Shown: in pieces, positions 9,663 to 34,916 of the stretch | Numbering within the stretch: position 1 is the first letter of the stretch | Layout of the letters: each line of letters starts with the position of its first letter | Assembly (NCBI GenBank): GCA_944323725.1 | Contig: CALUTP010000019.1 | Span: forward strand, 62,001 to 126,000 | Source of the DNA: Candidatus Gastranaerophilales bacterium | GTDB lineage: Bacteria; Cyanobacteriota; Vampirovibrionia; Gastranaerophilales; Gastranaerophilaceae | DNA: 64,000 nt | Direction: 5' to 3' | Position numbers and translations under genes: made by a program | The notes under the pieces: model-generated | Databases searched by the model: none | What the model saw: only the letters and a program-made list of their open reading frames with translations | What the model was told of the DNA's origin: nothing

Positions 9663-9696
9663 AAATAGAGTGTTCTTCTAGAAGAACACTCTATTT
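9663..9696. terminator. Perfect 34-bp palindrome after nrdJ (probable bidirectional terminator)
   Basis: Two 17-base arms (AAATAGAGTGTTCTTCT and its exact complement) meet without a loop at 9679/9680. The position 50 bases after the nrdJ stop suggests transcription termination. There is only a short T-run (TATTTG), so termination may be weak, or the element may protect the mRNA 3' end or bind a dimeric protein. Confidence 0.55.
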
Positions 9697-9792
9697 GTAA
9701 ATTATTGTAAAAGAAAAATCTTAAAATAGCATAAAAAAATTTTTTTAAGTATTAATACTATAAAACTGTACAAAAATTTCAGAGGTATATCT

Positions 9793-10287
9793 ATGGAAAC
9801 CGGAAAAATAATAAATATTGGCGGAAATCAAATTCAACAGACTAAAAAAGGTAATTTCCGAATTACAAATGCACAGGGTAAAACTAAAACTTTTTCTGAA
9901 GATGAAGTGATACTTCAGCTAACCAAAAATAGCGAAAAAGCAAGAAATGGCGAAGAATTTGAATTTAAAAAAGATTACAAAAATTCTATAAAAATAGCAG
10001 CAGGTATTGTTGGTGGAGCTGCAGTTACAGCAGGACTTGTTTATAGAAAAAATATCACAAAATTTTTCAATAAAATCGGTAAAAATATAAAAAATCTATT
10101 CAAAAAACGCATTAAAGATAATGGCAATATTGATGAATTGAGAAAGTTTTATAAATCATCAACAGAAATTCAAAATAATAAACATAGAGCCTTTATCGAA
10201 GATAATTTTACTCTTGAAGGTGAATTGAAAAATCTTGAAAGACGTAAACAAATGATTGAAGACGCAAAAGTAGTTTTTGCTAAATAA
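9793..10287 (+). CDS. Hypothetical small membrane protein
   Basis: 164 residues, no family recognised. The N-terminal 65 residues are polar and charged; one membrane segment follows (about 68-85, IAAGIVGGAAVTAGLVYR) and then a strongly basic stretch (KNITKFFNKIGKNIKNLFKKR) and a charged, probably helical tail. The pattern suggests a single-pass or peripheral inner-membrane protein with both ends polar. The start at 9793 has AGAGG ten bases upstream. It stands alone between the palindrome and a strong terminator. Confidence 0.65.
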   Translation: METGKIINIGGNQIQQTKKGNFRITNAQGKTKTFSEDEVILQLTKNSEKARNGEEFEFKKDYKNSIKIAAGIVGGAAVTAGLVYRKNITKFFNKIGKNIKNLFKKRIKDNGNIDELRKFYKSSTEIQNNKHRAFIEDNFTLEGELKNLERRKQMIEDAKVVFAK

Positions 10288-19310: not shown

Positions 19311-19340
19311 TTTACATAAAACTTAACATATCTTTACAAA
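19311..19340 (+). promoter_or_regulatory. HLR1-like direct-repeat box upstream of the 95-residue protein gene
   Basis: TTAACATA (19323-19330), two bases, TTTACAAA (19333-19340) fits the cyanobacterial HLR1 pattern (G/T)TTACA(T/A)(T/A)-N2-(G/T)TTACA(T/A)(T/A) at 15 of 16 positions. A further copy, TTTACATA, is at 19311-19318. The box ends 15 bases before the GCAATTTT element of the promoter, the same distance as at 19.8 kb. HLR1 is bound by the response regulator RpaB in Cyanobacteria; that it is so here is inference. Confidence 0.55.
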
Positions 19341-19354
19341 ACGATTTCTAAAAA

Positions 19355-19390
19355 AGCAATTTTTTCTTAGTTATATACTTTATATATATG
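19355..19390 (+). promoter_or_regulatory. Shared-type promoter, copy 1
   Basis: GCAATTTT (from 19356), 12 bases, TACTTTATATA (19376-19386). The same two blocks at the same spacing stand before the next gene, and with one base less before the gene at 33797. Likely a -35-like and -10 region. Confidence 0.6.
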
Positions 19391-19421
19391 TAAGAGATAA
19401 GAGAGAAGAAAGAGAGCTAAA

Positions 19422-19709
19422 ATGTTAGCAGCAACAGCAGATTCACATAACGATACTTCAGGAAACGGTCAATTTGGTTCATTGACTCGTAAAAGAAGAG
19501 GCAATAAAAGAAATACTCAAGGTTTCAGTATTGAAAATTACAGCTACCTTGATAAAAGAGATAAAAGAATGCGTTTTAATAATGCAAAAGATCCAATCTA
19601 TTACGTTTTTGATTGCATCGAAAACAGACCAGTTACAACACTTGCAAAAGAATTCGTAAAAGATTCTTTCAAAGATATTATACATTTTGTATCAACAGTC
19701 GTTGCTTAA
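19422..19709 (+). CDS. Hypothetical 95-residue protein
   Basis: No family recognised. The N-terminal half is polar and very basic (TRKRRGNKRN near residue 25, DKRDKRMRFNN near 45), with no signal peptide or membrane helix; the C-terminal third (KEFVKDSFKDIIHFVSTVVA) looks like an amphipathic helix. It could bind nucleic acid or membranes, but this is not shown. GAGAG precedes the ATG. It has its own promoter and terminator, and shares its upstream region with the gene at 19910. Confidence 0.65.
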   Translation: MLAATADSHNDTSGNGQFGSLTRKRRGNKRNTQGFSIENYSYLDKRDKRMRFNNAKDPIYYVFDCIENRPVTTLAKEFVKDSFKDIIHFVSTVVA

Positions 19710-19777
19710 TTAATAGGAAAAAGCAAAAGGAAAAGGTTTTAATTAATAAGGAAAATAGGAAAAGGAATTAAAAATAC

Positions 19778-19801
19778 AGGACGGTAAAACCGTCCTTTTT
19801 T
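19778..19801 (+). terminator. Rho-independent terminator
   Basis: AGGACGGT and ACCGTCCT with a three-base loop followed by five Ts; ends the 95-residue protein gene. The 60 bases before it are A/G-rich with a repeated TTAATTAATA. Confidence 0.9.
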
Positions 19802-19816
19802 ATTGCATTTTAGTCC

Positions 19817-19834
19817 TTTACAATACTTTACAAT
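19817..19834 (+). promoter_or_regulatory. Perfect HLR1-like box upstream of the 168-residue protein gene
   Basis: TTTACAAT, two bases (AC), TTTACAAT: all 16 defined positions fit the HLR1 consensus. It is also a tandem 10-base repeat (CTTTACAATA twice, 19816-19835). It ends 15 bases before GCAATTTT of the promoter and would lie at about -70 to -53 from the predicted transcript start, a place from which a response regulator could activate. Confidence 0.6.
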
Positions 19835-19848
19835 ATAGTTAATAAAAA

Positions 19849-19885
19849 GGCAATTTTTTTAACAGTAAATACTTTATATATATAC
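19849..19885 (+). promoter_or_regulatory. Shared-type promoter, copy 2
   Basis: GGCAATTTT (from 19849), 12 bases, TACTTTATATA (19870-19880), 30 bases before ATG 19910. Base-for-base spacing equals copy 1. Confidence 0.6.
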
Positions 19886-19909: not shown

Positions 19910-20416
19910 ATGGTAAAAGGAATTGAAAAAATTGATTTTCAAACACAAGGATATGTAAGTCCTTTATTTGCTGGTGTAAAACAAGAGAAAATAAACTCAG
20001 TTTTTGCAACAAATCCTATAACAGCATCTAAACAAAACGCTAAAGCTGAAGAGAAAAAAGCTGAAGCAATGGAAAATGCATTAAACGGAGTAAGCGATCC
20101 TGAAACAAGAGCTGCAATAAAAGATGCTTACTATAATGGCAATCCTACAAGAGCTTTCATTGATTACTTAATCAAACGCCACGAAAAACAACAAGAAAAA
20201 TTTGAAGCAGCTTGGGCTGAATATCAAGCATCAAAAAATAATCTTCAATTCTATAAAAAAATATGCGAAACAGTAACTAAAAAATATGAAAATTCTGACA
20301 GTAACTATGAACAAGGCTTAATTACAAAAGCTGACAAAAATTATACTAATGCAGAAATGACAACAGATCAGCTTTTAGATAAAGCAAGTATGATCGCACA
20401 TAGCTTTATTGCTTAA
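19910..20416 (+). CDS. Hypothetical 168-residue helical protein
   Basis: No family recognised. No signal peptide or membrane span. The first 45 residues are low-complexity (TQGYVSPLFAGVKQEKINSV); the middle is highly charged and probably helical (KAEEKKAEAMENALNGV, then a long Glu/Lys/Gln stretch to about residue 125), consistent with a coiled coil. It ends in a hydrophobic helix (MIAHSFIA). Single-gene unit controlled by the HLR1-like promoter that it shares with its neighbour. Function unknown. Confidence 0.65.
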   Translation: MVKGIEKIDFQTQGYVSPLFAGVKQEKINSVFATNPITASKQNAKAEEKKAEAMENALNGVSDPETRAAIKDAYYNGNPTRAFIDYLIKRHEKQQEKFEAAWAEYQASKNNLQFYKKICETVTKKYENSDSNYEQGLITKADKNYTNAEMTTDQLLDKASMIAHSFIA

Positions 20417-33747: not shown

Positions 33748-33780
33748 AGCAATTTTCATATTCATATTACTTTATATACG
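33748..33780 (+). promoter_or_regulatory. Shared-type promoter, copy 3
   Basis: AGCAATTTT (33748-33756), 11 bases, TACTTTATATA (33768-33778), 19 bases before ATG 33797. Same two blocks as at 19.36 and 19.85 kb, spacing shorter by one; no HLR1-like box upstream of this copy. Confidence 0.5.
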
Positions 33781-33796
33781 AAAAGGTAGATTAATT

Positions 33797-34003
33797 ATGA
33801 CTATGAAAATTGTTGGTTGTGCTGGGAGTAAAATCAATGAATATATTCCAACAAGATTTGATGACATACAAAAAGAAATTATTGCCGAAAGAATGAAAAA
33901 TTGGGTCGAAGCGTACAAAAAATATACTCCGCAAATCGATTTACAAAATGAAACATACCAACTCGGTGATGTTATAGGGAAAAAACTAAGCAAAATAATA
34001 TAA
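33797..34003 (+). CDS. Hypothetical 68-residue protein
   Basis: Soluble, charged and probably helical (FDDIQKEIIAERMKNWVEAY in the middle). A single Cys at residue 9 (VGCAGSK). Start at 33797 or the Met two codons later; AAAGGTAG lies upstream. No family recognised. First gene of a two-gene unit. Confidence 0.55.
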   Translation: MTMKIVGCAGSKINEYIPTRFDDIQKEIIAERMKNWVEAYKKYTPQIDLQNETYQLGDVIGKKLSKII

Positions 34004-34451: not shown

Positions 34452-34916
34452 ATGTTAGTCAAAAGAGATGAGATAAAAAATATAGTAAATAAAATTCATT
34501 CTGAAGGTAAAACTGTAGTCTGCACAAATGGATGTTTTGATATTCTCCATGTTGGACATATTCGCTACCTTGAAAAAACAAAATCATTTGCAGACTATAG
34601 CATTGTATTATTAAATTCAGATAAATCAGTTCGCTCAATAAAAGGACCTTCTAGGCCAATAAATAATGAAAATGATCGTGCTGAAATTTTAAGTGCATTA
34701 CGGTTTGTAGATTATGTTGTACTATTCGATGAAGATAGCCCACGAAATCTTCTAGATGAAATCAAACCTGACGTGTACACAAAAGGGGCAGATTACAATA
34801 TGGAGACACTTCCAGAAGCAGATATTATGATAAAAAATGGAACAAGGGTTGAATTTATAACTTTTGTCGAAGGAAAATCTACAACAAATACTATAGAAAA
34901 GATGAGAAATAATTAA
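34452..34916 (+). CDS. rfaE2: D-glycero-beta-D-manno-heptose 1-phosphate adenylyltransferase
   Basis: Activates heptose for the LPS inner core. 154 residues, corresponding only to the C-terminal (nucleotidyltransferase) half of the bifunctional HldE/RfaE; the kinase half must be elsewhere. Seen: TNGCFDILHVGHIRYL with the HxGH nucleotide motif, SVRSIKGPSRPI, and DVYTKGADY near residue 115. AAGGAT precedes the ATG. 13 bases before lpxD: an LPS operon. Confidence 0.93.
   Translation: MLVKRDEIKNIVNKIHSEGKTVVCTNGCFDILHVGHIRYLEKTKSFADYSIVLLNSDKSVRSIKGPSRPINNENDRAEILSALRFVDYVVLFDEDSPRNLLDEIKPDVYTKGADYNMETLPEADIMIKNGTRVEFITFVEGKSTTNTIEKMRNN

Follow-up and report, generated by a model that had tools for sequence, protein, structure and literature searches.

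HLR1-type boxes upstream of an order-wide promoter class in Candidatus Gastranaerophilales suggest an RpaB regulon in a non-photosynthetic lineage

The closest described system is the RpaB/HLR1 regulon of Cyanobacteriia, in which an HLR1 site at -45 to -66 activates and a site over the core promoter represses (PMC13421787). In Synechocystis, HLR1 sites are listed on either strand and with TTAACA halves (PMC6331805). Reports of RpaB, RpaA and NblS in non-photosynthetic relatives of cyanobacteria date back to 2013, with no known role there, and the sensor kinase NblS has been reported in Melainabacteria (PMC3787301, PMC4040986). The papers listed by a literature search on Gastranaerophilales promoters were all unrelated.

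The window, by which we mean the whole 64,000-nucleotide stretch of Gastranaerophilales DNA that was analyzed, contains two adjacent genes preceded by the following elements.

19323..19340, + strand: gene 1 HLR1-type box, TTAACATA-TC-TTTACAAA, 15 of 16 positions (1 mismatch to KTTACAWW-N2-KTTACAWW); place conserved in 79 orthologous loci
19356..19363, + strand: gene 1 promoter, -35-like element GCAATTTT, exact; order-wide
19376..19386, + strand: gene 1 promoter, -10-like element TACTTTATATA, exact; CTTTATATA hardly varies across 133 promoters, which were mostly selected at ≤1 mismatch
19398..19418, + strand: gene 1 leader segment with predicted pairing to a small RNA of the same promoter class; duplex -20.0 kcal/mol, conserved in orthologues
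19422..19709, + strand: gene 1, 95 aa, order-specific uncharacterized protein; no curated family over cut-off; best 80 of 265 relatives kept
19817..19834, + strand: gene 2 HLR1 box, TTTACAAT-AC-TTTACAAT, 0 mismatches to KTTACAWW-N2-KTTACAWW
19850..19857, + strand: gene 2 promoter, -35-like element GCAATTTT, exact
19870..19880, + strand: gene 2 promoter, -10-like element TACTTTATATA, exact
19910..20416, + strand: gene 2, 168 aa, uncharacterized coiled-coil-like protein found in close relatives only (3 of 59 genomes, all of the same genus); weak OEP match below cut-off

Order and spacing are identical at the two loci: box, 15 bases, GCAATTTT, 12 bases, TACTTTATATA and then the start codon, which lies 35 nt (gene 1) or 29 nt (gene 2) past the core. 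A preliminary description of this DNA had given these box and core sequences, coordinates and spacings exactly, and its proposal of a promoter and activator site shared by two genes is borne out and applies to a large regulon as well. The core, GCAATTTT-N12-TACTTTATATA, occurs twice exactly in the window, compared with 0.01 occurrences expected at ≤2 mismatches. HLR1 boxes by themselves are only weakly significant there (3 at ≤1 mismatch vs. 0.74 expected), and the case for the box therefore rests on the whole genome and its relatives. Elsewhere in the window, another exact HLR1 box (9694-9711, minus strand) lies approximately 80 nt upstream of a gene for an uncharacterized protein of 164 aa (9793-10287), with no GCAATTTT core, and a core with a spacer one base shorter, GCAATTTT-N11-TACTTTATATA (33749-33778), is followed 18 nt on by an ATG at 33797.

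In the whole genome (1.91 Mb), the core is present in 10 exact copies and in 49 copies at ≤3 mismatches, compared with 12 for a reversed-pattern control, and start codons are mostly located 25-50 nt downstream. Among 193 genomes of the class, the core at ≤1 mismatch was found in all 137 genomes of Gastranaerophilales, with 3 to 49 copies each, and in one of the 56 genomes from the rest of the class, as a single copy; the reversed pattern gave one match in total. In a separate sample, the core was not found in one less complete member of the order (G054, 88%). Alignment of 133 promoters revealed conservation of GCAATTTT, followed by A-x-A-TACTTTATATA and then by T-ATA-like bases and purines. 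Since these promoters were mostly collected at ≤1 mismatch, conservation within the pattern partly reflects selection, but conservation outside it does not. GCAATTTT-N12-TACTTTATATA is an order-wide promoter class that was previously undescribed and is predicted to drive dozens of uncharacterized genes and a small RNA.

The core is presumably read by a dedicated alternative sigma factor. It could instead be the housekeeping promoter in an AT-rich form, needing an activator and no dedicated sigma factor: TATATA follows GCAATT by approximately 18 bp, which is near-normal spacing, and the distribution of the motif was matched to no sigma factor. We consider this somewhat unlikely because the core motif is a long one that hardly varies and is restricted to a single order, and because 19 fixed positions would be unexpected in a weak, activator-dependent promoter. 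If a dedicated factor does read the core, a divergent group-2 sigma factor (C3:32909-33856), which adjoins the small RNA described below in 19 of 25 loci, is as good a candidate as a FliA-like one. The genome encodes FlhA, FlhB and a FliA-like sigma factor adjoining flhB. This flagellar/type III FliA-like factor was not adopted as the reader; it has close homologues (54-62% identity) in motif-free families and is absent from three motif-bearing genomes. As a separate observation, there are two FlhA-type genes and one FlhB gene (G000:C13:63984-65960, C38:9335-10351 and C28:5018-6112), and flagella are patchy in the order.

HLR1 sites are strongly overrepresented well beyond the window. The genome contains 25 exact sites and two of the reversed pattern. 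Approximately 22 of the 25 are intergenic; six are found immediately before a GCAATTTT-type core, and the others mostly precede genes with other promoters. Across 134 genomes of the order, exact sites average 21.2 per genome vs. 2.6 reversed, an 8-fold excess, and exact sites are the more numerous in every genome. In 152 genomes from other classes of the phylum the corresponding averages are 5.7 and 0.8, and in five genomes from another order of the same class there is no HLR1 enrichment (1 exact vs. 5 reversed in total). At three loci (L098, L101 and L119; contigs C3, C13 and C44 of G000), three exact HLR1 boxes each have nearly the same leader behind them, with tandem GGATA repeats at its end (ctgagataggataggatagg...), and these leaders precede different genes.

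The box is tied to the core in position. Boxes ending 10-30 bases before GCAATTTT were found in 17, 31 and 65 of the 133 promoters at ≤0, ≤1 and ≤2 mismatches to HLR1, respectively, compared with 0.03, 0.18 and 1.5 by the same count in dinucleotide shuffles; further HLR1 boxes at a set distance from the core, for which the preliminary description had proposed a search, are present. In none of 33 GCAATTTT occurrences lacking the -10 part was there a box. Either strand may carry it: forward boxes end at -13 to -15 from the core, reverse boxes at -16 to -20, and four boxes at -28/-29 are one repeat unit further out. With a relaxed consensus and ≤2 mismatches, a box is present in 94 of the 133 promoters, leaving about a third without a recognizable one. 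The half-sites repeat with a period of 10 in 43 of the 133 promoters and of 11 in four. Pho-type boxes, the sites of PhoB/PhoP, have a repeat period of 11 bp; the period of 10 thus fits HLR1 and not a Pho-type box. Taking the transcription start to lie near motif position 38, we estimate the box to be at -53 to -75. By the cyanobacterial HLR1 rule this would be an activating place, an estimate to the extent that the start is predicted.

Gene 2 occurs in only three of 59 genomes and is therefore unfit as a conservation test, so we turned to gene 1. Members of its family were gathered from 84,980 species genomes with protein similarity as the only criterion, and the best 80 of 265 relatives were used. 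Most matches with informative titles are Candidatus Gastranaerophilales or melainabacterial metagenome-assembled genomes (MAGs), and the remainder are gut MAGs or have generic titles; a few of these titles point to other taxa, probably by misassignment. Among these best 80, the core is kept in all 79 scorable loci (69 exact, 8 with one mismatch and 2 with two), and a box is present in 21 of 79 at ≤1 mismatch, compared with 0.03 in shuffles, and in 55 of 79 at ≤2. The repeats noted before the two genes are thus found upstream of gene 1 orthologues as well. Many of the remaining loci have TTAACA halves. The orientation of the box flips between orthologues, for which a simple path can be envisaged: since GTTAAC reads the same on both strands, a TTTACA half-site could become TTAACA and then TGTAAA. 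With only the window in hand, the boxes could be taken for chance matches in AT-rich DNA, given the modest excess there. The fixed position, the 10-bp period and the conservation in orthologues, with counts far above those of shuffles in both the 133 promoters and the 79 loci, refute this reading, which we regard as exceedingly improbable.

Three OmpR-type regulators are encoded in the genome. One of them (C22:4064-4813) is RpaB according to the NCBI equivalog model NF045944, scoring 362 bits against a cut-off of 330, whereas the other two score approximately 200; the regulator that the preliminary description had invoked is thus present. This protein is approximately 70% identical to cyanobacterial RpaB, and its recognition helix, DTRVVDVHISRLR, is unchanged from that of the cyanobacterial protein but differs in the other two regulators. 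Of 59 genomes taken from across the phylum, 56 have an RpaB over the cut-off. On these comparisons RpaB is a well-supported candidate for the protein that binds the boxes. Another OmpR-family regulator of the same genome might bind them instead, as C40:61166-61882 (with an adjacent histidine kinase) and C1:3952-4647 are both present, a regulon promoter that has an exact box is no more than 1 kb away from the gene of the latter, and the regulon boxes often have TTAACA rather than TTTACA. This is rather unlikely, however: the C22 protein alone qualifies as RpaB under the equivalog model and carries the recognition helix of cyanobacterial RpaB, and the site has both the 10-bp period and the letters of HLR1.

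If RpaB is the binding protein, its effect could also be other than activation. RpaB might repress or merely tune these promoters, with the sigma factor alone activating them. HLR1 can repress in cyanobacteria (PMC13421787), the orientation of the box is not fixed and some promoters lack a clear box. We consider this reading unlikely, as the boxes are placed at some distance before the core, by estimate the activating place in cyanobacteria, and not over it. Activation from upstream is thus the reading that we prefer.

One promoter of the class (C3:34647-34677, minus strand) has no reading frame behind it. It is followed by a stretch of approximately 60 nt ending in a terminator, which we interpret as a small RNA (L261 1479-1538, corresponding to G000:C3 about 34580-34643, minus strand); it is single-copy and lies beside folE2. 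Of 59 relatives, 25 (from 13 genera) have one copy of a 34-nt core of this RNA, which is unchanged in at least 20 of them. Among 20 distinct sequences the first 28 nt show no variation, the terminator loop varies, and a GCAATTTT-type core, degenerate in some cases, lies upstream of the copies. The hairpin hardly varies, so its covariation is uninformative. Covariance models of Rfam 15 gave no match at E ≤1 for the RNA at the two loci searched (L001 and L146).

At its invariant 5' end the small RNA is complementary to the ribosome-binding region of gene 1, and its unpaired segment GCUCUCUCUUCUUA is complementary to gene 1 leaders. The median duplex energy is -16.9 kcal/mol for the leaders of 78 gene 1 orthologues vs. 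-8.7 kcal/mol for 127 other leaders from the same loci, a difference to which the higher purine fraction of the gene 1 leaders (0.76 vs. 0.59) contributes. When the small RNA is shuffled, which preserves its composition, the pairing is lost (mean -7.5 kcal/mol). Canonical Shine-Dalgarno words are present in one of 68 gene 1 leaders and AGAGAG in 65 of 68. AGAGAG may itself have a function in ribosome binding, and the apparent small-RNA pairing of these purine-rich leaders could partly reflect an unusual ribosome-binding site. A translational link from the small RNA to gene 1 is accordingly offered as a prediction only. We also considered the RNA as a general regulator of all leaders, but the result for the regulon of this genome was not significant (p = 0.15), and gene 1 alone stands out.

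The likely targets are largely uncharacterized. Six of nine regulon proteins from this genome that were scanned against Pfam had no match over the cut-off or no match at all, and the other three gave an EF-hand, an HD domain and a sub-threshold CHAP match. AlphaFold returned no usable model for gene 1 (pLDDT 55). Among the families that recur are Gly-rich proteins bearing TTY[IV]QNNFFG-like motifs, coiled-coil-like proteins, the gene 1 family and a small family that is ribbon-helix-helix-like by sequence (MARVLISMPERFLDEID...RTRSELIREALRTY). The last is found behind the promoter in several genera (L014, L134, L161 and L179) and is a possible downstream regulator of the regulon. Many proteins behind HLR1 boxes or the core at L096-L120, L028 and L078 share a short N-terminal VxFxG-type motif (KFGNLTT, VSFGDNT, LSFGYGG, VSFRGNYD), a possible signal for export or sorting.

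Based on the computed promoter, box, fixed geometry and conservation, and on an RpaB with a conserved recognition helix, we propose that genes 1 and 2 would belong to an order-wide regulon of Candidatus Gastranaerophilales with two-part promoters. In this proposal an HLR1-type direct repeat of 10-bp period, ending 13-20 bp upstream of the core and some 53 to 75 bp before the likely start, would most likely be bound by phosphorylated RpaB as a tandem dimer, activating from upstream as in cyanobacteria. A dedicated sigma factor would read the core, and the small RNA, made from the same promoter class, would pair with the ribosome-binding region of gene 1 and so place gene 1 in a feed-forward loop. 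We consider this explanation as a whole fairly probable.

The preliminary description had gone further and seen in these loci an ancestral redox or stress regulon that outlived photosynthesis. Its shared promoter and box and the presence of an RpaB are borne out, but the ancestral stress regulon is not supported: the targets are lineage-specific and uncharacterized, those scanned contain no pointer to photosynthesis or to a classical redox regulon, and the other order of the class (five genomes) lacks HLR1 enrichment. Published discussion of Melainabacteria favors a view in which these regulators came before photosynthesis rather than outliving it (PMC3787301). An ancestral regulator and site with a new, lineage-specific regulon fits better.

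A broader reading, which we hold tentatively and with something less than even confidence, is that a promoter class which defines the lineage and has a sigma factor of its own is gated by RpaB and controls lineage-specific, possibly surface or secreted, proteins together with a dedicated small RNA. If so, RpaB/HLR1 would be a signaling module older than photosynthesis in the cyanobacterial phylum, which one branch wired onto functions of gut life and the other onto photosynthesis. For one non-photosynthetic order, the analysis names likely RpaB targets concretely and across the genome, and it offers a directly testable promoter. A role of RpaB outside photosynthesis thus becomes testable, and it can be asked whether a regulator of photosynthesis began as something else. 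It also adds a new promoter class and a small RNA to an order known mostly from gut metagenomes.

Relative to the RpaB/HLR1 regulon of Cyanobacteriia, the system described here has the same regulator at the equivalog level, the same recognition helix, the same 18-bp direct repeat and, by estimate, a similar upstream placement. It differs in that its targets are not photosynthesis or high-light genes, its box is tied to one special core at a fixed distance, and its halves are often TTAACA and occur in either orientation. Pho-type boxes likewise consist of directly repeated TTAACA/TTTACA-like halves recognized by a protein of the OmpR family, but are separated from these sites by their period. 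Promoters of the sigma-28 type (FliA/WhiG/SigD) resemble the core in the -35 element, which is similar to TAAAGTTT and has TAAATTT variants in this genome, and FliA-like sigma factors are encoded here; in contrast, the -10 element of the core is the nearly invariant CTTTATATA rather than GCCGATAA, and the FliA-like candidate is not co-distributed with the motif. Finally, the small RNA resembles known small RNAs that target ribosome-binding sites through a CU-rich seed, being short, with an unpaired CU-rich seed, an intrinsic terminator and predicted pairing to a ribosome-binding region. Unlike those, it has no Rfam match at the two loci searched, is confined to one family of the order among the 59 relatives and shares its promoter class with its predicted target.
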